This document shows positions 35,176 to 47,110 of a stretch of DNA of 47,110 nucleotides, piece by piece (position 1 is the first letter of the stretch; every line of letters begins with the position of its first letter). The position numbers were made by a program, and so were the translations under genes. A model generated the notes under the pieces. The model had not been told where the DNA came from and made no database searches. It saw only the letters and a list, made by a program, of their open reading frames with translations. Source of the DNA: Opitutia bacterium (GTDB lineage Bacteria; Verrucomicrobiota; Verrucomicrobiia; Opitutales; Seribacteraceae); contig NYYP01000018.1 in the NCBI GenBank assembly GCA_002686835.1, positions 35,533 to 82,642 of the forward strand. The letters are read 5' to 3'.

Positions 35176-36486
35176 TTATACCAGTAAAGTAGCTGGGTTC
35201 TCGAGAACCTCAGATAAAACTTGTAAAAAACGAGCTCCAACAGCCCCATCAACCAGCCTATGATCACAACTTAGGCCTAAAGTCATGGTTTCTCCGGCTT
35301 GAATGGTCCCGTTTCTACCTAGCACAGGTTTGGCAACGCTTGCACCAACAGCTAAGATCGCAGCATTTGGGGGATTGATAATGCCACTAAAAAAATCAAT
35401 ACCAAACATGCCAAGATTTGTTACCGTAAAGGTGGATCCATTCATTTCATCAGGAGTGAGCTTCCGGTTACGTGACTTTTCGATCAAAGATTTTGTTGCA
35501 ATTGCCATTGATGGAAGATCCAGCAATTCCGCTTTTCTAATAACAGGAGTAACAAGACCATCATCCACTGCCACCCCGAAAGCTAAATTTACCTGCCCGT
35601 GAAAAATGATTTCCTTTTCTGCCCAGGAGGTATTAATCTCGGGCACGAGAGGAATTGCTTTTGCGCAGGAAAAAAGAATGAGATCATTAATACTGATCTT
35701 GCCCAAATTAGAGCCTTCGCTTGCTAGTTTCCGGTTGATAGACTCTCTGGCCAAGCGAAGCGGTTCTGAATTTATTTCCTTTTGTAGATAAAAGTGGGGG
35801 ATAGTAGTTTTAGATTCAAGCAATCGTTTTGCGATCACGGAACGCATTTTGCTGACCGGAATGGATTTAGCATCAAGAGATGAAGAACAGGTTTTTGTGG
35901 GGGTGCCTTTGGGATGTTTGCCACCATCTTCCAATGAATATGAGGTTGAATGCAGAGATTCAGGGGACAAATCTTTCTTTGTAATTCTCCCACGAGGCCC
36001 AGAGCCTTTGATTTTAGATAGATCAATATTGTTTTCCTGGGCAATCTTTTTAGCTAGCGGAGAAGCCAAGATTCGCCCGCCAGAATCATCCTGCTGAGTT
36101 GGCTGATCAGTCACATCAGATGGTTCCGGGTTAGTAGATGGATCTGAAGACTCCTCAGACAAATCAGGCTCTTTATCAGACTCTTCTTGAGTTCCGTCAG
36201 ATTCAGGTATGGATTGTTCAGGTTCTTCAAACAGGGGAATCTCCTCCCCGACATTCCCCACGACGGCAAGGGGTTTACCAATCTCGACCTCGTCCCCTTC
36301 GTTGGCAAGTAGTTTGAGCACAACACCGTCCTCAAAATTTTCGAGTTCCATGGTTGCTTTGTCTGTTTCAATTTCAGCCAAAATGTCACCATTTGCAACT
36401 TCATCACCCGCTTGTTTATACCACTTTACGACAGTTCCTACCGTCATAGTGTCGCTCAACTTGGGCATTTCAATAATTGTACTCAT
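35176..36486 (-). CDS. pdhC: Pyruvate dehydrogenase E2, dihydrolipoamide acetyltransferase
   Basis: E2 is the core of the pyruvate dehydrogenase complex and moves acetyl groups to CoA. The 436 residues have one lipoyl domain with the modified Lys43 (ETDKATMELEN), an acidic Ser/Glu/Pro-rich linker (residues 80-130), the E1/E3-binding domain (ASPLAKKIAQENNIDLSKI, then KGSGPRGRITKKDL), a second linker, and the catalytic domain with SCDHRLVDGAVGARFL near residue 408. The start is ATG at 36486, 7 nt after pdhB. E3 is not in the window. The branched-chain type is less likely given pdhA/pdhB sequence. Confidence 0.93.
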   Translation of the reverse strand: MSTIIEMPKLSDTMTVGTVVKWYKQAGDEVANGDILAEIETDKATMELENFEDGVVLKLLANEGDEVEIGKPLAVVGNVGEEIPLFEEPEQSIPESDGTQEESDKEPDLSEESSDPSTNPEPSDVTDQPTQQDDSGGRILASPLAKKIAQENNIDLSKIKGSGPRGRITKKDLSPESLHSTSYSLEDGGKHPKGTPTKTCSSSLDAKSIPVSKMRSVIAKRLLESKTTIPHFYLQKEINSEPLRLARESINRKLASEGSNLGKISINDLILFSCAKAIPLVPEINTSWAEKEIIFHGQVNLAFGVAVDDGLVTPVIRKAELLDLPSMAIATKSLIEKSRNRKLTPDEMNGSTFTVTNLGMFGIDFFSGIINPPNAAILAVGASVAKPVLGRNGTIQAGETMTLGLSCDHRLVDGAVGARFLQVLSEVLENPATLLV

Positions 36487-36493
36487 AGCAGGT

Positions 36494-37471
36494 CTACAAT
36501 AGTTCCATTGCTTTCGCTAAAACGCGATCATGGTTAGGAATTTGAAAATTCTCCAACGCCTTGCTGTAGGCTTGCGGAACATCAATGGCCGACACTCTTT
36601 TTACAGGAGCATCCAAATGGTCAAAGGCGTGCTCCTGGATAAGGTAAGCAATTTGGGAGTCCACTCCACAAAATGGCTTATTTTCCTCTACCAAGAGGAC
36701 GCGATTTGTTTTCCTGACCGTGTCCAAAATAGCATCTAAATCAAGGGGTCGGATGGAACGAAGATCGAGCACTTCGACTGAAACCCCATGTTTTTCCTGT
36801 AATGTTTCAGCAACCTGCAGGGCGACCATAACAGAACGCCCATGTGCAATAATTGATAAATCATTACCTTGGCATACTGTGCGTGCTTTTCCAAGAGGTA
36901 TTATAAAGTCCTCCTCCTCCGGTACCTCCCCCTTGAGGTTGTAAAGAATAGTATTTTCCATAACACATACAGGATCATTGTCTCGTATGGCCGCTTTCAT
37001 CATGCCTTTGGCATCGGCAGGTGTGGAGGGGCAGATGACTTTTAGGCCAGGTGTATTAGCGGCGAAGTTTTCCGGGGTGTGCGAATGGGTTGCCCCAACA
37101 TTTGTTCCCCCATTTGCGGGACCCCTAAAAACAATGGGGACATTAATCAGACCACCCGACATGTATCTAATACTGGCGGCGTTGTTAAAAATCTGATCAA
37201 ATGCTACATAACAAAAACTCCAAAACATGAACTCAACCACGGGTCTCATTCCCATCATCGCAGCCCCGACAGCAAGTCCGGAAAAGGCAGCCTCACTGAT
37301 GGGTGTATCGATAATTTTATCGGGACCAAATTTTTCCAAAAGTCCCTCTGAAACTTTGTAGGAACCCTTAAACTGGGCCACTTCTTCCCCCATCAGGACA
37401 ACATTTGGATCTCGTGATATTTCCTCAGATAAAGCTTGGTTGAGGGCTTCCCTGTATGTGATTTCAGGCAT
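36494..37471 (-). CDS. pdhB: Pyruvate dehydrogenase E1 beta subunit
   Basis: E1 alpha and beta together decarboxylate pyruvate with thiamine diphosphate and load acetyl on E2. The 325 residues begin MPEITYREALNQALSEE and show GEEVAQFKGSYKVSEGL, FGPDKIIDTPISEAAFSGLA, HSHTPENFAANTPGLK and LVEENKPFCGVDSQIAYLI, all typical E1-beta segments. The Glu in MGEEV contacts the cofactor. The start is ATG at 37471, 17 nt after the pdhA stop at 37489. The operon order pdhA-pdhB-pdhC is the usual one for two-chain E1 complexes. Confidence 0.95.
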   Translation of the reverse strand: MPEITYREALNQALSEEISRDPNVVLMGEEVAQFKGSYKVSEGLLEKFGPDKIIDTPISEAAFSGLAVGAAMMGMRPVVEFMFWSFCYVAFDQIFNNAASIRYMSGGLINVPIVFRGPANGGTNVGATHSHTPENFAANTPGLKVICPSTPADAKGMMKAAIRDNDPVCVMENTILYNLKGEVPEEEDFIIPLGKARTVCQGNDLSIIAHGRSVMVALQVAETLQEKHGVSVEVLDLRSIRPLDLDAILDTVRKTNRVLLVEENKPFCGVDSQIAYLIQEHAFDHLDAPVKRVSAIDVPQAYSKALENFQIPNHDRVLAKAMELL

Positions 37472-37488
37472 TTTTAGAAGGTTTGTTA

Positions 37489-38631
37489 TTAGCGGGAAGA
37501 TTCAAAAAACATTTCACCGGATGAAACTTTTTGATCAGGATTGTCGGTTTCCCAGTAAACATCATCCATTAACTCAGAAACTTCAGGGAAAGGACTGGCA
37601 ATGGCAAATTCTGCTGAAGCTTCAGCTTCATCTTTAGCTGCCTGATCTAACAGGTTGGCTTTTTCATCCGATAAAACACCCTCAGAAATTAACTTGTCCC
37701 GAAATAAATTTATCGGATCTTTATTTTGTTTGTATTCTTCAATTTCCTCTTTGCTCCGATATGTTTGATCAGGGTCGGCAACGGAGTGGCCTCGATAACG
37801 GTAAGTAACTATTTCTAAAACCGATGGGCTGGAGCTTTCTTTAGCAAGAACTAATGCATTATTGATTGCGTCTCGAACTTCATAAAGGTCATGGCCTTGG
37901 TGAACCGACCAATTAATATCAAAGGCTTCTCCCCTGCGAGCGAGGGGTTCTCCAGCAGAGTGCCTGGATTCAGCTGTGCCCATTGAATAACCGTTATTTT
38001 CAATGATGTAAACGACAGGCAAACCCCATAAGGATGCTAAATTCAGGGACTCATAGAAAGGGCCCTGGTTAGTTGCTCCATCGCCCATAAAACACATACA
38101 TGCCCCTTTTTTCTTCCTGTGTTTTAAGGCGTATGCAATGCCAAGACCAAGGGGTGTTTGTCCTCCAACAATACCATGACCGCCCCAAAAGTTTTTGTCT
38201 GGTGCAAAGAAATGCATGGAACCACCCTTACCCTTGGAACATCCCGTGCGTTTGCCAAATAATTCTGCCATGCATTCGTCCATATCCATACCAACTGCAA
38301 GTGCATGGCCATGATCTCGATAAGCTGTAATCACATGGTCATCCTCAGACATCACTGAAACCGACCCAACTGCAACTGCCTCCTGCCCGATGTAAAGGTG
38401 TAAAAACCCTCCAATGTGTCCTTGCTGGTAAGCCCGCAAGGACCTTTCTTCAAACCGGCGTATGCGAACCATTTGTGAATACAGACGGATTTTTTCTTCC
38501 GAATCCAACTGAAGGTTGATGGGCAAATTAGAAAAATCGCTGGTTTGAGCAATATCGGGTGAATCAACCACAGTTTTTTTTTCAGAAACGGGCGAGTCTT
38601 TTAAATCGGCGTCGTGGTATATACCTTCCAT
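37489..38631 (-). CDS. pdhA: Pyruvate dehydrogenase E1 alpha subunit
   Basis: This is the thiamine-diphosphate-binding chain of the E1 component. The 380 residues have a 45-residue variable, acidic N-terminal extension. After it come RRFEERSLRAYQQGHIGGFL, TAYRDHGHALAVGMD, the GKGGSMHFF signature, the TPP motif GDGATNQGPFYESLNLASLW (about residues 175-195) with ENNGYSMGT, and the phosphorylation-loop-like YRYRGHSVADPDQTYRSKEE. Start at ATG 38631, 14 nt after the Nudix gene. It leads pdhA-pdhB-pdhC. Confidence 0.95.
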   Translation of the reverse strand: MEGIYHDADLKDSPVSEKKTVVDSPDIAQTSDFSNLPINLQLDSEEKIRLYSQMVRIRRFEERSLRAYQQGHIGGFLHLYIGQEAVAVGSVSVMSEDDHVITAYRDHGHALAVGMDMDECMAELFGKRTGCSKGKGGSMHFFAPDKNFWGGHGIVGGQTPLGLGIAYALKHRKKKGACMCFMGDGATNQGPFYESLNLASLWGLPVVYIIENNGYSMGTAESRHSAGEPLARRGEAFDINWSVHQGHDLYEVRDAINNALVLAKESSSPSVLEIVTYRYRGHSVADPDQTYRSKEEIEEYKQNKDPINLFRDKLISEGVLSDEKANLLDQAAKDEAEASAEFAIASPFPEVSELMDDVYWETDNPDQKVSSGEMFFESSR

Positions 38632-38645
38632 AAAATATTATAAAA

Positions 38646-39152
38646 TTAACAACCTCTCTTTATGTGGTTGGTGGGACTAGCTTCAATCTCTAAATTGAGA
38701 AAATTAGTGGAACAATCCGCCTTTATGCCCCAAATGCCCTCCTCCCTGCGATCATAGTAGGGCCAGACTAATTGATGGTCAGAAGGGGGAATTGCAAGTT
38801 TGTCGATTTCTTCCCTTGAGTAAAATCCAAAAGTGCCCTCCTCGATATCCTTTGGGGTATGATCTATGCATACTAAACAGTCAAAAAGAAACATTAACCA
38901 ATGGGAACTGCCCTCATATGATTTTTCTGAAACATAGCCAAAAAGCCTTAAGTCTTTATTTTCTAGACAGATATTGACCTCCTCAAAAGCCTCTCTTTTA
39001 GCACACTCAAAAGGGGACTCCCCTTTGCTCATTTCTAACTTTCCACCAGGAGGGCTCCATGTGTTTAAATTGGGAGGTTTTTTCCTTTTGATCATTAACA
39101 AACGACCAGAATTATCCCGAATAAAGAGCAGGCATGATAACTGAAATTGCAT
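38646..39152 (-). CDS. Nudix hydrolase (MutT-like)
   Basis: The 168-residue protein has a Nudix box around residues 36-60 reading GGKLEMSKGESPFECAKREA then FEEVNI. The catalytic REx2EE pattern is intact (REAFEE), but the loop between the first Gly and the conserved Glu has two extra residues and the usual Gly after EE is Asn. The N-terminus LSCLLFIRDNSGRLLMIKRK and the WSPPGG segment match MutT/8-oxo-dGTP-type Nudix proteins. The substrate is unknown. The start is ATG at 39152. It reads toward pdhA with a 14-nt gap, so it may be the first gene of that operon. Confidence 0.88.
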   Translation of the reverse strand: MQFQLSCLLFIRDNSGRLLMIKRKKPPNLNTWSPPGGKLEMSKGESPFECAKREAFEEVNICLENKDLRLFGYVSEKSYEGSSHWLMFLFDCLVCIDHTPKDIEEGTFGFYSREEIDKLAIPPSDHQLVWPYYDRREEGIWGIKADCSTNFLNLEIEASPTNHIKRGC

Positions 39153-39223: not shown

Positions 39224-39892
39224 ATGAAAAAAATTCTTGCACTGTTCTTTATTCCATTTTTGCCCATATCGCCCAATTTGATGGGGGAAGAACTACAGAT
39301 TGATCAAATTATCAAACTAGATGGCAAAATTACAGTAAATCAGGACTCGGAAAGGTGGCTGAAAATTACGGTTCCGTTTGTAATAAATCAGCATCCAGAT
39401 AAAGTTAGACTTGATCTTGAGGGTAGAAGACCAAAAAAAATTGAGGACTTGTTCAATCCTGACTTCCTTGACGGTCTTCAGATTAAGATATGGATTAGTT
39501 TCCTAAATGAATTTAATAGATCATTTACTCGGGGAGATCGAAAGGATGTACGTCTGTTTGACTACTACTCAGCAGAATTAGAATGTATGGTACTTGAGAT
39601 CGACCGCAAAACGAAAAAAGCTGAATTCTTATTTCCATCTGCTGTTGCTAAAATGAATGAGTTGGGGAACTACCCAAAACTGACCGGTTATGTTGTTGAG
39701 TTTAGTCGAAATGGAGAAACCTTTAAAGTTACGGATCAGGTAACCTTCCTAAATTACGACCAAGAGGAATATTTGGAAAAGTACAGAATGGAAGCGGTGA
39801 ACAAATCTTCAGAAAATGAAGGCGTGCTAATTCCCGCATACCTCATAAGTGACAATTATCTTAATGACCTTGGTCCGGTAGTCCGGGATTAA
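39224..39892 (+). CDS. Exported protein, probable Amuc_1102-like pilus-cluster component
   Basis: The 222-residue protein has a signal peptide (MKKILALFFIPFLPISPNLMG) followed by a soluble domain rich in beta strands (VPFVINQHPDKVRLDLEGRR; LECMVLEIDRKTKKAEFLFP; LTGYVVEFSRNGETFKVT). I cannot assign a Pfam-type family by eye. It stands first in the five-gene run at the position of Amuc_1102 of Akkermansia, a periplasmic OB-fold-like protein of similar size. That match is by position, size and export signal. ATG at 39224; the next gene begins 20 nt after the stop. It is divergent from the Nudix gene, so the operon promoter should lie at 39153-39223, where I see no clear boxes. Confidence 0.7.
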   Translation: MKKILALFFIPFLPISPNLMGEELQIDQIIKLDGKITVNQDSERWLKITVPFVINQHPDKVRLDLEGRRPKKIEDLFNPDFLDGLQIKIWISFLNEFNRSFTRGDRKDVRLFDYYSAELECMVLEIDRKTKKAEFLFPSAVAKMNELGNYPKLTGYVVEFSRNGETFKVTDQVTFLNYDQEEYLEKYRMEAVNKSSENEGVLIPAYLISDNYLNDLGPVVRD

Positions 39893-39912
39893 TAAACTAG
39901 TGCATATATCTC

Positions 39913-41664
39913 ATGGCTCAGCCAAGTGAGACAATTTTTAATTTGGGTAGTTCGCATATTTCAGCGAGCAAATTTTCGTTGCAATCTGGAAAACTATCTC
40001 TTGAGAGTTTTGAATTAATAGATTTGCCCATTGTTAGTGGCGGAGAACAAGACTGGCTTGATGCAGTTGAGGGAGCCATTAATGAGTTGGCATCCCTGCC
40101 GGGGTTTAAGTGTGATGCGAGCTTTATTTTACCTAGCAGCATTGTTCTGTCCAAAACATTGAGGGTTCCAAAGGTTGAAAGCGAAAAACAAAGAAAAGTT
40201 GTCGCCTTTGAACTTTCTCAAAAAATGCCCTTTCCCCTGGAAACATTACTTTGGGATTTTTTAGTTATTGAGGATGATGGAATTGAGCAGGAAATACTTA
40301 GTTTTGCGATCAAACCTGATGTTATTGAAAAACTTACCCAATCGATTTTCAGTAGTGGCATTGTTCCGGTCCGGTTTACACCGGGACCGGCTCTGGATTA
40401 TTGCTCACTGAAAGAAAGCTTAAAAACACAAGATAGTGATAGCTTACTTATAAACTTTGGAGCAAAGTCGACCAACCTAACCTTTTTTAGTTCTTCGGGG
40501 TATCTTTTAAGAAGTCTAAATTTTGGAGGAGGGCACCTTACAGAATCGATCGCAAGCTCATTTGGCGTAAATCAGGAAAAGGCGGAGGATTTAAAGAAGA
40601 ACTTCACCAACGAAAAAAGGGATGCTGATCCTACCGATAATGCCGTATCCATGTTACATGCGATCCAAGAAAATTTCCTAAATAAATACATGCAGGAAAT
40701 TTCACGATCCATAGTTACCTATAAGAGGCTCAAAAAAGGTAAAACCCCATCTCAATTAATCGTAACTGGCAGAACAATAAAGAGTGCTAATTTACTCCAG
40801 AGTTTAGCCCAGTCGCAGATGAAACCAATCAAATACTTTGACCCATTTACCCAGATTATTGTATCTGATACAATCAACGAATCTGATCGTTCGATCTTGC
40901 CTTTTATCTTTAGTGAGAGTCTCGGTCTTGCAAACCTGCTCATTTTAGAGCCAAAAGTAACTGCACTAAATCTTATACCAACCGCCAAATTGAAGCAGTT
41001 GGAAAATAAGAAGAAACTTCCATGGCTACTTGCCTCTGCATTCCTTATGTCGCTTATCCCTCTGCCCTGGTATCTGACACTTAGCGGAACTGAGAGAAAA
41101 TTAAATGAAGAGGCTGTAAATTTAAAGCGACAAACAGTTGAAGAAACAGAGAAACTCAATTTGTCCAAGAAGGAAAATGCCAACTTAGAGTTAATTAAAT
41201 CGATCAACAAGACGGCTGGCTCTCATATAAATCAACTTGAAATCCTTTCAAAAAAAGTGTTTTCGATTCAGGACTTTCTGAACAGTCTGCAGTTAAAGCT
41301 AGATGAAGAAATAAATCAAAACACCTGGATTGATCGATTTGAATTCCTCCCCCCAAGGCGCCAAATAACAGCACCTTTGGCCAAAAGGGAGGAGCAAAAT
41401 GCGTTGAGTGTATTGGCGAGAGTATCTGGTAGATATTTAGTGAAACCCGAGATTCAATTGTATGATTTGCCTGAAGATGATCGCAAACTTGCCCTGATTG
41501 AGGAAAGCGGGCGAATTCAAGAATCCCTCACCAAAGCAGTTTCTGATATCGGGCAAGTTGTAAATGTAAGCAAGAAGACATTTTCTATTGAAGGAAAAGG
41601 AGATTTATACAATCGCCAGTTTACCCACTTTGAATTTGATTTAGAATTGGATTTATTGAGATGA
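39913..41664 (+). CDS. PilM-PilN fusion-like inner-membrane assembly protein (Amuc_1101-like)
   Basis: The 583-residue protein has an actin-like PilM half. It begins FNLGSSHISASKFSL, followed by SKTLRVPKVESEKQRKVVAF (the PilM segment that contacts the N-terminus of PilN in other systems), then LLINFGAKSTNLTFF and LNFGGGHLTESIAS, the phosphate/ATP loops. Near residue 375 a single transmembrane helix follows (LPWLLASAFLMSLIPLPWYL), then a coiled coil (residues 395-450) and an alpha/beta periplasmic domain like PilN. So PilM and PilN appear fused in one chain. Starts at ATG 39913 and overlaps the next gene as ATGA. Confidence 0.85.
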   Translation: MAQPSETIFNLGSSHISASKFSLQSGKLSLESFELIDLPIVSGGEQDWLDAVEGAINELASLPGFKCDASFILPSSIVLSKTLRVPKVESEKQRKVVAFELSQKMPFPLETLLWDFLVIEDDGIEQEILSFAIKPDVIEKLTQSIFSSGIVPVRFTPGPALDYCSLKESLKTQDSDSLLINFGAKSTNLTFFSSSGYLLRSLNFGGGHLTESIASSFGVNQEKAEDLKKNFTNEKRDADPTDNAVSMLHAIQENFLNKYMQEISRSIVTYKRLKKGKTPSQLIVTGRTIKSANLLQSLAQSQMKPIKYFDPFTQIIVSDTINESDRSILPFIFSESLGLANLLILEPKVTALNLIPTAKLKQLENKKKLPWLLASAFLMSLIPLPWYLTLSGTERKLNEEAVNLKRQTVEETEKLNLSKKENANLELIKSINKTAGSHINQLEILSKKVFSIQDFLNSLQLKLDEEINQNTWIDRFEFLPPRRQITAPLAKREEQNALSVLARVSGRYLVKPEIQLYDLPEDDRKLALIEESGRIQESLTKAVSDIGQVVNVSKKTFSIEGKGDLYNRQFTHFEFDLELDLLR

Positions 41665-42680
41665 AAAAAAATATTTTATTATTTTCAATTCCCATCATTG
41701 TTGTAATTCTGCTATTGGGATTATCTTTTAATAAAATTAGCGAAATAGATTCGAAGAGAAATGATATAATAAATATTGAAAAAGAACTTAATTTTGTATC
41801 AAGTGAATTGGAAATAGAAAAACTATTTTCTAATGATTTAAACTTAGCAAATGACGAGTTAAAAATATGGATTGATCGGGGTAATTTACAATCGAAATTT
41901 TGGAGTGAATTTATTAATAAAGATTTAAACATAGCTTACAACCATTCGCCCAGATCATCTTCTTCAATAAATACTGAAATCAATAAATTACTTTCCTACC
42001 TGAGTAGAACATTTGATGGCAGGAATGTAAAATTAGGGAATTCGCAGCCAAGTGAATTATTTTTTTCCACTCAGGACTTAACTAAAGAAAAAAAATATGG
42101 GTTTGGATTTTCCGCATACGATGGTTTCTGGCCAAGTTTTAACAAAAGCGAGGCAAATATCATCTTAATCCAGGCAAACATTGTGAAAGAGATCTGTGAG
42201 TTTCTTTTAGATTCATTTGATTTAGGTGAATCATTCACATTGCTCTCAATCAAGCGGGAGGCAGCTGGTTCTGAGGATAAAAAACATATTGGCGACAGCC
42301 ATTATGTGAATACAAACCAAACAACTTACCTGCGGGATGGCAAGCTTGTCGCTTCTCATGTTTTTGAAATCTCGTTTACTGGTAAAACGCGAAACTGCCG
42401 AACCTTCATCAATCAATTACGAGCTCCATACAGCCTTCGGTCCTTGCGGGTTATGAGAGAGGAAAAAACGGATACCGAAAACCAATCGGACTCTGTTAAC
42501 AACGAGGAAGCGGGAGAGTCAGGTATTTTACCTATTGTCCGTGATATTTCATCAAAATTTACCTTAGAAATCGAGTATGTATATAAATCTGAGTCAAGTC
42601 TGCATAATCGAGTTTCAAAAATACTTCCTGTTGGTTCTGACACTGAAAAAGTGGAAGAAATATTAAAACAATTTAATTAA
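41661..42680 (+). CDS. Membrane-anchored periplasmic protein, Amuc_1100-like (PilO-like)
   Basis: The 339-residue protein has one N-terminal transmembrane helix (ILLFSIPIIVVILLLGLSF, residues 4-22), then a coiled coil (residues 25-75) and a C-terminal alpha/beta part with two likely ferredoxin-like repeats (ANIVKEICEFLLDSFDLGES; CRTFINQLRAPYSLRSLRVM). This is the PilO-type topology and the architecture of Amuc_1100, the Akkermansia protein known from host-interaction studies. Homology is inferred from layout and place in the cluster; I could not align them. The N-terminal half is very AT-rich. It is translationally coupled (ATGA) to the PilM-PilN gene. Confidence 0.75.
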   Translation: MKKNILLFSIPIIVVILLLGLSFNKISEIDSKRNDIINIEKELNFVSSELEIEKLFSNDLNLANDELKIWIDRGNLQSKFWSEFINKDLNIAYNHSPRSSSSINTEINKLLSYLSRTFDGRNVKLGNSQPSELFFSTQDLTKEKKYGFGFSAYDGFWPSFNKSEANIILIQANIVKEICEFLLDSFDLGESFTLLSIKREAAGSEDKKHIGDSHYVNTNQTTYLRDGKLVASHVFEISFTGKTRNCRTFINQLRAPYSLRSLRVMREEKTDTENQSDSVNNEEAGESGILPIVRDISSKFTLEIEYVYKSESSLHNRVSKILPVGSDTEKVEEILKQFN

Positions 42681-42684
42681 AAGA

Positions 42685-43944
42685 ATGAGAGTTAAACATA
42701 TAGAAAAATTCTCATTGGTGTTGGCAATTTGTTTAGTCGTACTGTCCTTTTTCCTGTTTTCTTCTTATTCTGCCAAATCTGAAAATAACAATTATAAAAA
42801 TGACCTTTTTGAATCTAAAAAAAGATCTGGCACTGAATATTTTATTTTTAGAAAAGAAATTTCTATCATGCCTGGAGAACTTTTATCTTTTTACAATGAA
42901 GAGAGTGAACTTGCAGAGTCTTATGAAGTACAAAATATACTCATTCCCTCCAGGCAGGAGATCGAAATTATTACAGAAGATAAGAAAATAAAGGGCACTT
43001 CAAGACAAGAGGTCATTTTTGAGAAAAACTGGAGATCTTTGCCTGGTGTATTTTCGATCAGGCAAAACAAAGAAACGATCCAGATTAAACTATCTGATGT
43101 GGTTGGTATAAGGGGTAAATTATGGTTAAAGATCGATGCTAACCTTAAAACCCTAAACGATGAGGATTTGACAGTGTCTTTTTATCAAAAAACTACCCAT
43201 TCTCAAACAGAAGCTCATTTACCAGAGAGACTCAAATGGATTAACTCAGGAACAGAGGAAAACCAATCTGCATATGATTTGTTTACTCCTCCCATTATCT
43301 ACATTCACAACGGGGAATTGACCACAAGGCTACCAGAAAAAGAGGTAAAGGAGGAAAAAATAGAACCTTTTGGCCTATCCCTCGTAGGGGTTACGAAGTC
43401 AGAATATCCACTAAGGCTAAAAAGTTGGGTTGGAAACACTCCTTATTTTGAAGACCTTGCGACCATTGAAGATGGAACAGGAAAAATTATTCGTAATCGT
43501 ATTGAAGTTGGGAAACCTCATAAAAGAGTGGAAGACCGCAAACCAGGACAACAAAGCTTTGAAATTTGTGACAGCAATGATACTGATAAAATCTTCACGG
43601 TTCAGTATTTTGCTGTGCAGCAATACCGCAACCCCGAGACTGGCGGGTTAAAACCGGTTGGTAGAGCCATGATCCAAGACCACAAACTGGGGGGCAAACC
43701 TTTTGAAATAAATACCCTAATGAAGGGCGTTTATGCAGGGAATATGACTTTTAACTTCATGGCAAGCTTGCCTGGCCTTGACCCGAAGGAATTTAGCTTT
43801 TCAAGTTCTGACTCTCTCGCAACACTGGAGTATGGAGGAAGAAAATATCTGGTATCTGAAATCGATTTGGAAAGCAAAACCTTACGGGTCACCAAACAGG
43901 ACCCCAGATTGGAGGAAGATTCATACCAAACATTTTCTTTTTAA
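42685..43944 (+). CDS. Membrane-anchored protein, Amuc_1099-like
   Basis: The 419 residues begin with one transmembrane helix (LVLAICLVVLSFFLFSSYSA, residues 11-30) and continue as a soluble, beta-rich periplasmic region. Segments such as FGLSLVGVTKSEYPLRLKSW and the C-terminal GGRKYLVSEIDLESKTLRVT are periodic and PilP-like in character. I do not recognise a named family directly. Position between the Amuc_1100-like gene (4-nt gap) and the secretin matches Amuc_1099. The role is probably to link the inner-membrane assembly to the secretin. ATG at 42685; the secretin begins 108 nt after its stop. Confidence 0.72.
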   Translation: MRVKHIEKFSLVLAICLVVLSFFLFSSYSAKSENNNYKNDLFESKKRSGTEYFIFRKEISIMPGELLSFYNEESELAESYEVQNILIPSRQEIEIITEDKKIKGTSRQEVIFEKNWRSLPGVFSIRQNKETIQIKLSDVVGIRGKLWLKIDANLKTLNDEDLTVSFYQKTTHSQTEAHLPERLKWINSGTEENQSAYDLFTPPIIYIHNGELTTRLPEKEVKEEKIEPFGLSLVGVTKSEYPLRLKSWVGNTPYFEDLATIEDGTGKIIRNRIEVGKPHKRVEDRKPGQQSFEICDSNDTDKIFTVQYFAVQQYRNPETGGLKPVGRAMIQDHKLGGKPFEINTLMKGVYAGNMTFNFMASLPGLDPKEFSFSSSDSLATLEYGGRKYLVSEIDLESKTLRVTKQDPRLEEDSYQTFSF

Positions 43945-44052
43945 TCATCAAGGCACATGAAGATTCTTTATAGATTGACCCAACGGATTTTCTGTATGGA
44001 ATCCACAAGGGTTGCGTTAATGTAATTTCCAAAGCCTTTCATACTGTTCCTA

Positions 44053-47000
44053 ATGTTTCTTGCCAAAAACTATATTCCTAAGTTGTTTCAGCAATTTTTG
44101 TTTATTTGGCCAATTTTGTATTTGGCAGTAAATATACAACTATATTCCCAAGGCTTACCCAAAATTGACCTTCCCGCTCAGGCTGCTCCGCCACTACCTC
44201 AAACACCTGCCCGTTCAATAACTGCCGCGGAGATTGGGCCCAATACCAACCTGGTTTTGCTTCTGGATCAGATCCGCACTTTAACTAATGATGGTCAACT
44301 ACAGGAAGCACAAAAAATAGCCTCTTCTGCTTTGGAAAATTTGAACCAAAGCGAGCAAAACGAATTTTACTTACGGCAGATTAAGGCAGAGGAAACCAAA
44401 CTTTATTTTAAGTTGGCAAACCGTGCGATGCTCAACAAGCAATATTCCCAAGCAAGCCAGTATATCGAGCGATACCGAGAAAATGTTGCCCGAGAATTGG
44501 AAAGCCGAAAAATTCGTCGTGAAATAAAAACAGAACTTAAGGATAAGCAGGATGTAAGCCTTGTGGGAAGATTGGTGGAAGAGCTGGATCAGGCCAAAAA
44601 AGACCTTGCCCAGATTAGGGCTAAAACTGGACTGCCCAAAGATGATGCACAACCGGATTTGGAGCGTTTGGTTGAGGAAGAAAAAGTACAGATGGAAAGG
44701 TCATTAATGAGTGCGGAAAACCTTTTACGAAAAGCAAGGTTTGACTCTGCTCAGGGGAGGTATGACCTTGCGGATGACCATTTAAACGAGGCACTGGGTT
44801 TATTAAGTCCAAGTGCTGGAACGATTGCAATGATCAGCGACCTTTACAAGGCCAAGCAGCAAATCATTTGGTACCGTGTGGGGGAGGCGATGCTGAAAGG
44901 AAAGGTTGCGGAGGTGCAAGAGCTTACCCTCAATTACAAAGAGACGGAAGAATCGAGAAGAAAACTGGAAACGAACACGCTGGGTATATCCGCCGAGATT
45001 GATTTCGATGCAGAGATTAGAAAAGCCAACGAAAAAAATAAGGAACAGGCAAAATTTGCTGAAGAAATGCTTGATGAGTCCAAAGACCTGATAAAAGAGA
45101 AAGAATATGACCGGGCTGAAAAAATTCTTCTTAAGATTTCCAATTTTTTAGAGCCAAGTACTCTTACCTGGCCGTTGATTCTTGAGGCCTCTCTTATTAA
45201 AAACCGTATAAATTTAGCGAAAGCCGATGATGCCAGAAAAAACAAAGATTGGGATAAAGCACAGGAGCTTTTAGACGAATTTCGCACAGGGTTTTACTCC
45301 GACCGGAATATTCAGGGGGACACCCTTACCTATGGTCGACCTGGCCTCAAAGAAACAGAAGGCGAAGATGCGATGAAAGAAGAGCTGGCCCTTGCCGATA
45401 AAGAATTGGCGAAAATCAGGAAAGATCAAAGTAATCCTTTCATGCGGGATATTACCGAATTTACTCCGGACTGGAAACAGCAGCAGGAACAACTTAAAGA
45501 GTTGCTGATGCGTGCCAAAGTGCAATTTATTAATGGTGATTTAACAGGAGCAACAGAGACTTACCGAGTGGTTGAAACCCGTTATAGTGATAACTTTGAA
45601 GCCAAAGAAATGCTCAAGCGAATATCACAAATGCGGCAGCAGGAAAGCTATTTGGGGTACATCAAAACACGCCAGGAAATGCTTGAAGAAATCGAGCGTG
45701 AATGGGAGCGGCCCAAAGTATTTGACCGACAAATAGAAGAAACACAAGAGGTGGAAGAAGGGCCGAGTAATATTGAGGCAAAACTTAAACTTATTGAAAT
45801 TCCCGGAGTTGACTTTTTTAATTCACCCTTGTCCGAAGCAATGACGGAGCTGCAAAGACAGGCTCGTTTATTTGACCTGACTGAACCTGACCCTGCGAAA
45901 AAAGGTCTCAATATCATACCACTTATTGGAGAGGAAGAAGAACCGACGGTGAATATCAAACTCAATGCGATGGCACTGGGTAAGATGATTGAATTTATCA
46001 CCGAGATGGTTGGTTGGACATTTGATATTCGTTCCGATGCGGTAGTTATCCAAAAAACTGGCGGTACTTTTAAGGGCCGACCTTTGGAGACGGAATTTTA
46101 CCAGATGAACCCCGGAACTGTTCAACGGCTAACTGGAAGCAGTGGTGGAGGTGCCGCGGATGCGGATCCATTTGCTCCAGCTGGAGGCGGTGGTGGAGAT
46201 GGTGGTGACGAAGGTATTAAAATCCGGGCTTTCCTGGAAAATACAGGAATTCCTTTCATTGATGCCAAGGGACATAAATTTGCATTTGACGGTTTTCAAA
46301 TGATTATCACCCATGAGCGTCGATATTTAGATTTGATTGAGAGAATACTCTCCAAGCTCGACGAGGAGTCCAGCAAACAGGTGGAAATCGAAGCAAAGTT
46401 TTTGGAGGTGCAAGAAGGAGCTTTAGACGAAATTAGCTTTGATTGGTCATATTCATGGGGAAATGCTAATACTTTTTTGGACGAGAGTGGTTACCCAGCT
46501 AGGGATTCTATGGGAAGGTACATCAGGTCTTATGAGAAGGTTTTAACAGGAAATACCAGAACCCTAGCAACAGCTCATTCACCTGCTGGTATTTCTCGAG
46601 ATACGGTAATTAGTATGCCTGATAACCCGGATGCTAGCATGAATATTCCTAATCCCATTCCAAATTTGCCAGGGAAGATAGGTATTGGGGCCGGTGTTTC
46701 GCCATTGACCAACTTTACTTTGACTAAGGAAGGCAGCATCGGAGAAGTTGATCGAAATGAGATGATTATCGGAAGTAGTCAGGCGGCATTGATGATTAAT
46801 GCACTAAAACGCAAGCAGGGAACCGATTTATTAAGTGCTCCTAGAGTGACTGTCATGGACGGCCAATCTGCTACGATAACGGTTGCCCAAGAGTTTATTT
46901 ACCCGACCGAATATGAACCGGCACCGGCACCAACTATTGGGGGAGGTGGGGGTAATAACGACGGGGGAGGATTGGGTGGAGCCATACAAATCCAGTCGGC

Positions 47001-47110
47001 TATTCCCCAATTTGAGACAGTTGCCCCTTTAGATGAGCAACCAGGTTTTAGGGAAGTAGGAGTTGTTCTAAATGTTACCCCAACCATTGAAAAATATAAT
47101 TCTATCAATC
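44053..47110 (+). CDS. Secretin with long TPR-like N-terminal region (Amuc_1098/GspD-PilQ-like), cut by window end
   Basis: From the ATG at 44053 (MFLAKNYIPKLFQQFLFIWP) the frame stays open to the window edge, giving at least 1019 residues. A signal segment covers residues 1-33. Residues 60-590 are helical, TPR/coiled-coil-like, with repeated AQ-x-L-L motifs (ARFDSAQGRYDLADDHLNEA; YDRAEKILLKIS; KNKDWDKAQELLDEF). An N0/STN-like domain lies near 634 (IKLNAMALGKMIEFITEMVG), then a Gly-rich loop, and the secretin core from about 775: VEIEAKFLEVQEGALDEISF, SAPRVTVMDGQSATITVAQ and VGVVLNVTPTIEKY. Outer-membrane channel of the cluster. The 3' end is missing. Confidence 0.93.
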   Translation, partial: MFLAKNYIPKLFQQFLFIWPILYLAVNIQLYSQGLPKIDLPAQAAPPLPQTPARSITAAEIGPNTNLVLLLDQIRTLTNDGQLQEAQKIASSALENLNQSEQNEFYLRQIKAEETKLYFKLANRAMLNKQYSQASQYIERYRENVARELESRKIRREIKTELKDKQDVSLVGRLVEELDQAKKDLAQIRAKTGLPKDDAQPDLERLVEEEKVQMERSLMSAENLLRKARFDSAQGRYDLADDHLNEALGLLSPSAGTIAMISDLYKAKQQIIWYRVGEAMLKGKVAEVQELTLNYKETEESRRKLETNTLGISAEIDFDAEIRKANEKNKEQAKFAEEMLDESKDLIKEKEYDRAEKILLKISNFLEPSTLTWPLILEASLIKNRINLAKADDARKNKDWDKAQELLDEFRTGFYSDRNIQGDTLTYGRPGLKETEGEDAMKEELALADKELAKIRKDQSNPFMRDITEFTPDWKQQQEQLKELLMRAKVQFINGDLTGATETYRVVETRYSDNFEAKEMLKRISQMRQQESYLGYIKTRQEMLEEIEREWERPKVFDRQIEETQEVEEGPSNIEAKLKLIEIPGVDFFNSPLSEAMTELQRQARLFDLTEPDPAKKGLNIIPLIGEEEEPTVNIKLNAMALGKMIEFITEMVGWTFDIRSDAVVIQKTGGTFKGRPLETEFYQMNPGTVQRLTGSSGGGAADADPFAPAGGGGGDGGDEGIKIRAFLENTGIPFIDAKGHKFAFDGFQMIITHERRYLDLIERILSKLDEESSKQVEIEAKFLEVQEGALDEISFDWSYSWGNANTFLDESGYPARDSMGRYIRSYEKVLTGNTRTLATAHSPAGISRDTVISMPDNPDASMNIPNPIPNLPGKIGIGAGVSPLTNFTLTKEGSIGEVDRNEMIIGSSQAALMINALKRKQGTDLLSAPRVTVMDGQSATITVAQEFIYPTEYEPAPAPTIGGGGGNNDGGGLGGAIQIQSAIPQFETVAPLDEQPGFREVGVVLNVTPTIEKYNSIN

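Follow-up and report, generated by a model that had tools for sequence, protein, structure and literature searches.

Five co-directional genes at the end of an Opitutales contig

The stretch of DNA analysed here (the window) comprises 47,110 nucleotides from a genome of the order Opitutales (2.16 Mb in 46 contigs, 89% complete), and it ends with five genes that all lie on the + strand between positions 39224 and 47110. The first gene (39224..39892, +) encodes an Amuc_1102-like exported protein of 222 aa with a Sec-type signal peptide. It is followed by a gene (39913..41664, +) for an Amuc_1101-like protein of 583 aa, consisting of PilM and a C-terminal transmembrane and PilN-like part, by a gene (41661..42680, +) for an Amuc_1100-like, PilO-type protein of 339 aa with a membrane helix, a coiled coil and an alpha/beta domain, and by a gene (42685..43944, +) for an Amuc_1099-like one-helix periplasmic protein of 419 aa. 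The fifth gene (44053->47110, +; 1019 aa) encodes an Amuc_1098-like secretin with N-terminal helical repeats. The ORF coordinates confirmed the co-directional arrangement and the spacings of 20, -4, 4 and 108 nt that the first-pass annotation had reported. The window stops at the last base (82,642) of contig C36 of the source genome, so that the secretin gene is cut and the region 3′ of it is unreadable; judged against a family member of 1204 aa, ∼155 C-terminal residues are missing. A divergently oriented NUDIX hydrolase gene (38646..39152, -), which is not part of the machine, neighbours the cluster, and this gene and those for a 2-oxoacid (pyruvate-type) dehydrogenase form a conserved flank within the window's family. 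Among named records, the nearest loci belong to uncultured marine Opitutales/Opitutia, followed by Cerasicoccus and Coraliomargarita.

Sequence relationships and predicted folds of the five proteins

The second protein matched the Pfam family PilM_2 (PF11104, E=3.7e-18), and its profile found PilM structures in the PDB (PilM 3jc8) at 1e-44. Its PilN portion was assigned by topology and position only, as a transmembrane and coiled C-terminal half in which no PilN family of Pfam was matched. For the third protein, a 20-member profile found the Amuc_1100 crystal structures at 2e-10. The predicted model of this protein (pLDDT 78) returned Amuc_1100 chains as the first ten matches in a PDB fold search (E 3e-8 to 8e-7), followed by a weak match to PilO of Pseudomonas (2rjz_A, E=0.034, prob 0.95) and by 3jc8_O (prob 0.92). 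As modelled, the third protein thus has the Amuc_1100 fold and a weak resemblance to the PilO fold, which backs the earlier PilO-like call.

The remaining proteins are more divergent. The top PDB match of the first protein was Amuc_1102 itself (7dsz), at only E=0.09. The fourth protein had no relative in Pfam or the PDB by sequence, and its predicted model (pLDDT 83, pTM 0.44) found nothing better than E=0.08 among PDB folds. An identification of this protein as PilP was unsupported, as no PilP match was obtained by sequence (Pfam, PDB) or by fold. Single-sequence searches with the fourth protein across the phylum found only 2 of 145, and profiles were therefore required. Besides a core at residues ∼200-419, it carries an extra N-terminal domain (∼residues 40-165), which a profile search over 141 entries showed to be confined to the window's own family. 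All 39 entries that matched the profile of this domain, some of them loci entered twice, belong to that family where their kinship is known, and no short form was seen among them. An origin of the extra domain by duplication of the core was rejected, since hhalign gave the alignment of the two a probability of 0.9%.

In the secretin, only the first 37 of the 169 positions of the Pfam Secretin domain were matched because the window and contig end there; the domain is complete in relatives. Conceivably, the cluster could represent a second type II secretion system, in which folded enzymes would be exported by the secretin with the help of pseudopilins and a GspE-type motor. Among the general models the secretin indeed scores higher with GspD (3e-11) than with PilQ (9e-8). 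However, Amuc_1098_fam is by far the best secretin model (2e-68), the fused protein is PilM rather than GspL, and a complete, separate T2SS-type cluster with GspE, GspF, a GspD secretin, pseudopilins and GspK is located on contig C2 of the same genome. GspE, GspF and pseudopilins are absent from the five-gene cluster and were found in that separate C2 cluster. We therefore regard a second type II secretion system as improbable.

Homology to the Amuc_1102-1098 cluster

The Akkermansia muciniphila locus (L246, 43 ORFs) was located in genome G113 via a 100% match to a 158-residue stretch of Amuc_1100, and profiles built solely from Opitutales loci were run on it. These profiles recovered all five proteins, namely 1102 at 1e-6, 1101 at 3e-90, 1100 at 6e-13, 1099 at 8e-6 and 1098 at 3e-135. 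Each of them had a single match among the 43 ORFs, and the gene order was the same as in the window. This bore out the earlier equation of the cluster with Amuc_1102-1098. When the window sequences were used singly, 1101 and 1098 were the only proteins recovered. NCBIfam already holds families for all five proteins (NF042912, NF042425, NF038287, NF045709 and NF042424), and none of the window proteins reached the respective cut-off. The secretin obtained 231 bits with Amuc_1098_fam (cut-off 750), the PilM-PilN protein 185 bits with Amuc_1101_fam (3e-54; cut-off 650) and the 1100-like protein 23 bits (cut-off 180), while no NCBIfam match was obtained for 1099 and 1102. At the sequence level, the window cluster is thus homologous to Amuc_1102-1101-1100-1099-1098 but divergent, and since the scores lie far below the NCBIfam cut-offs, we do not term its proteins equivalogs.

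Distribution of the cluster across Verrucomicrobiota

The five-gene cluster was described by Ottman et al. in 2017 (PMC5332112), and PilQ homologues in other Verrucomicrobia and Lentisphaera had been reported by Ottman et al. in 2016 (PMC4960237). Recently, Wilkie et al. (2026; PMC13174399) reported synteny of this system, MUL2, in aquatic Akkermansiaceae and other Verrucomicrobiales; Chthoniobacterales showed it less strongly, and Methylacidiphilales lacked it. The same authors proposed a pilus-based attachment to particles and glycans. In addition, they showed that marine Akkermansiaceae take up labelled fucoidan (PMC13174399), and mucin accumulation in A. muciniphila requires MUL genes (cited in PMC13174399).

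The first-pass annotation had proposed a synteny comparison across the phylum, and in this comparison 99 of the 132 distinct loci carried the complete five-gene arrangement, which argues that the order is not due to chance. It is present in A. muciniphila, in further families of its class and in other classes of the phylum. Of the 33 loci with an incomplete order, 23 reach the end of their contig, 1102 is the sole gene not recognised in 7, and 3 represent a second, more divergent PilM-PilN system. Within the window's family, the fourth protein was found in 38 of 42 genomes, where some matches are to a solo paralogue. The PilM-PilN profile matched in 364 of the 388 genomes sampled across the phylum, a figure that overstates presence since 19 of the matches are weak (E above 1e-20). 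The two weak matches that were placed exactly, in G377 and G036, resemble FtsA in position and length. The near-identical gene order throughout the phylum supports the view that the machine is ancestral rather than a gut adaptation. This agrees with the earlier reading of a machine of general use; the idea that it is not a host adaptation is, however, mostly published already, and the designation of the system as under-described did not hold in view of the published MUL2 synteny (PMC13174399) and the NCBIfam families. What is new here is that the cluster also occurs in Opitutales and further groups, that other contigs of the genome encode a candidate motor, and that coaE and rho provide a link between the cluster and this motor.

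A candidate motor and the coaE-rho link

The first-pass annotation saw no motor ATPase in the window and called motor and substrate unknown. Candidates for both are, however, present in the source genome, where other contigs carry two PilB-type ATPases, PilC, PilT and genes with prepilin motifs. Specifically, coaE, rho, PilB1, PilB2 and PilC form one co-directional run on contig C2 (L009, 15690 down to 8414), both PilB proteins have MshEN domains, and PilT is encoded on contig C40.

The genes coaE and rho are housekeeping genes, and they are the neighbour that the cluster and the motor genes have in common. In 17 genomes outside Opitutales, including A. muciniphila, coaE-rho lie co-directionally 3′ of the 1098 secretin gene, although coaE was undetected in one of these genomes and rho is located several kilobases further on in one. 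Within Opitutales, 13 motor loci were examined, and in all of them coaE-rho precede PilB1-(PilT)-PilB2-PilC (12 complete; rho undetected in L291). In A. muciniphila (genome G113), the tandem PilB1/PilB2 genes are located at C1:1905740-1908590, with PilC next to them. The two halves were not found in one run in any genome examined. As coaE-rho adjoin both halves, we infer that the pair is a trace of one ancestral locus and that PilB1-PilB2-PilC is the motor of this machine. Extending this idea, the ancestral locus would have read [1102-1101-1100-1099-1098]-coaE-rho-[PilB1-PilT-PilB2-PilC] and would have been split at different places in each lineage. The tandem PilB1-PilB2-PilC would then be the MUL2 motor, 1102 would act as a soluble partner and not as a pilin, and the whole would constitute a core attachment or glycan-capture apparatus of the phylum. 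We offer this extended scenario tentatively, rating its chances at somewhat below even.

The motor genes also occur in genomes in which the cluster was not detected. The motor ATPases were found in four genus-mates (G145, G146, G149 and G150), in which PilM-PilN and a matching secretin were undetected. In all four members of the genus that do bear cluster genes (G000, G147, G148 and G151), there is a contig break inside the cluster. Local strain variation may thus have disturbed the assembly, which could account for the missing cluster in the fragmented genus-mates. In G151, stop codons inside PilM at first suggested loss of the cluster, but they reflect one frameshift near a contig end, 1102 and the flanks are intact, and we do not claim decay. 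A better counter-example to the motor link is G108, a genome from another Opitutales family that is 99% complete in 6 contigs and has the motor ATPases, with PilM-PilN undetected. In these genomes, either the motor has another role too, or the cluster was not assembled.

The 1102-like protein and the candidate pilins

A structural comparison of 1102 with an archaeal type IV pilin was presented by Wilkie et al. (PMC13174399), and the 1102-like protein itself could thus be the pilin of this system. In contrast to that view, the 1102 homologues inspected begin with an ordinary Sec signal peptide that has an AxA-type site at its end, which speaks against a pilin role, and the prepilin motif is absent from them. 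Furthermore, ordinary prepilins are encoded elsewhere in the source genome, where four genes with a prepilin motif lie in a run on contig C39 and one lies on contig C32. A pilin role of 1102 is therefore highly improbable in our judgement. Together, the ordinary signal peptide and the prepilin-motif genes elsewhere lead us to favour a putative soluble envelope or secreted partner, which would not polymerise, and the filament candidates are probably the C39 and C32 pilins. These pilin assignments, like those of the motor, could have been mixed up with components of the T2SS-type cluster.

A probable type IV pilus-type machine with a possible role in attachment or glycan uptake

Taking these findings together, we consider it likely that the cluster, as the Opitutales form of MUL2, contributes the inner-membrane alignment complex and the secretin to a type IV pilus-type machine, with its motor encoded elsewhere in the genome and a filament that is probably built of the C39/C32 pilins. 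This machine may serve attachment or the capture of large glycans. The PilM-PilN protein 1101 would sit at the cytoplasmic face, cross the inner membrane and couple the PilB/PilC motor to the periplasmic 1100 and 1099 proteins. The PilO-like 1100 and the one-helix 1099 would span the periplasm and align with the outer-membrane secretin 1098, through which the pilins would extend and retract; 1102 would be an exported accessory protein. The two PilB-type ATPases and PilC from C2 and PilT from C40 would supply the motor. By analogy with Akkermansia, from which the use is carried over, the pilus would extend and retract to attach the cell to surfaces or to capture large glycans. While the homology, the gene order, the modelled 1100 fold and the presence of motor and pilin genes were observed, we infer that the complex is served by this particular motor and these pilins, and likewise what the machine is used for.

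Alternatively, the PilM-PilN-PilO-like scaffold and the secretin could form a fixed trans-envelope conduit for the secretion or uptake of proteins or glycans, lacking a pilus filament. Such a conduit would fit with the finding that no pilin or ATPase gene lies in or beside the cluster in Opitutales loci with enough flank, except that L166 and L108 have an ATPase of lower score, with the Sec signal of 1102, which lacks a pilin helix, and with the genus-mates that seem to retain the motor without the cluster. However, PilM, PilN and PilO are parts of type IV pili, the source genome encodes both a motor and pilins, and coaE-rho tie the two halves together, so that we deem a filament-free conduit unlikely.

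Amuc_1100 has been studied as a probiotic effector, and its machine is poorly understood. By naming likely motor genes, the question of what powers MUL2 becomes testable by gene deletion in A. muciniphila and its marine relatives, and the value of the cluster lies in this testable motor assignment and in its phylum-wide reach. Moreover, if the apparatus is old and phylum-wide, the effects of Amuc_1100 on the immune system would seem to be a side effect of envelope machinery that is ancestral.

Comparison with known systems

The type IVa pilus system PilMNOPQ resembles the machine proposed here in PilM (by sequence), PilO (by fold, weakly), the secretin and, if the PilN-like part is counted as N, the order M-N-O-x-Q. 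It differs in that PilM is fused here to the putative PilN part, that an additional exported protein is encoded by the first gene, that no similarity to PilP was found for 1099, and that the motor and pilins are unlinked to the cluster. PilB, PilC, PilT and pilins are nevertheless all present in the source genome as type IVa pilus parts, which we would tie to the cluster. With type II secretion systems, the cluster shares the secretin and the logic of the platform, whereas the T2SS-type cluster of the source genome is separate and has its own secretin.

With MUL2 of A. muciniphila, the window cluster shares the five homologous genes, their order and orientation, the 1100 fold as modelled, the fusion of PilM to a PilN-like part and a TPR-bearing secretin. 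In contrast to MUL2, the window 1099 has the extra N-terminal domain, and the Opitutales loci lack coaE-rho after the secretin, the pair preceding the motor genes instead. The MUL2 loci of aquatic Akkermansiaceae and Verrucomicrobiales share the same synteny outside the gut (PMC13174399). The main text of Wilkie et al. covers Verrucomicrobiales, Chthoniobacterales and Methylacidiphilales (PMC13174399), and the present analysis extends this coverage to Opitutales and to the remainder of the phylum.

Genomic context of the cluster

Upstream of the five-gene cluster, the minus strand carries the E2, E1-beta and E1-alpha genes of a 2-oxoacid (pyruvate-type) dehydrogenase together with a NUDIX gene (window 35176-39152), and this flank proved to be conserved in two genera of the window's family. 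The 1099-like protein encoded within the cluster (42685-43944) has an additional N-terminal domain at about residues 40-165, which was confined to the window's own family among the loci sampled.

In all four genus members that have cluster genes, a contig break falls within the cluster (window end 47110; loci L076, L077 and L346). Since the breaks lie inside the cluster in each of the four, they hint at local strain variation. In the genus-mate G151, the PilM gene carries a single frameshift near its start, close to a contig end (L346:10336-10835), which may represent either a sequence error or decay.

Related genes outside the cluster

The 1099 core has a solo paralogue of 310 aa with one helix, encoded at a distance from the cluster (L075:6269-7201, corresponding to G000:C40:21269-22201 in the window's own genome); the gene directly following that of the paralogue looks like one for a SIMPL-type periplasmic protein. 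Genus-mates also displayed solo 1099-core-like matches, even those without the cluster.

Pilin-motif genes were found on two other contigs of this genome, namely a run of four on C39 (L347:5927-8680) and a lone gene on C32 (L348:8572-9348), neither of them within the T2SS-type cluster.

A tandem pair of 1098-type secretin genes was observed 3′ of the 1099 gene at loci L251, L253, L267, L270, L271 and L272, which represent several non-Opitutales lineages. Loci L274 and L276 carry a second, divergent PilM-PilN system, in which the secretin gene is placed ahead of PilM and a secretion-type ATPase is encoded nearby.
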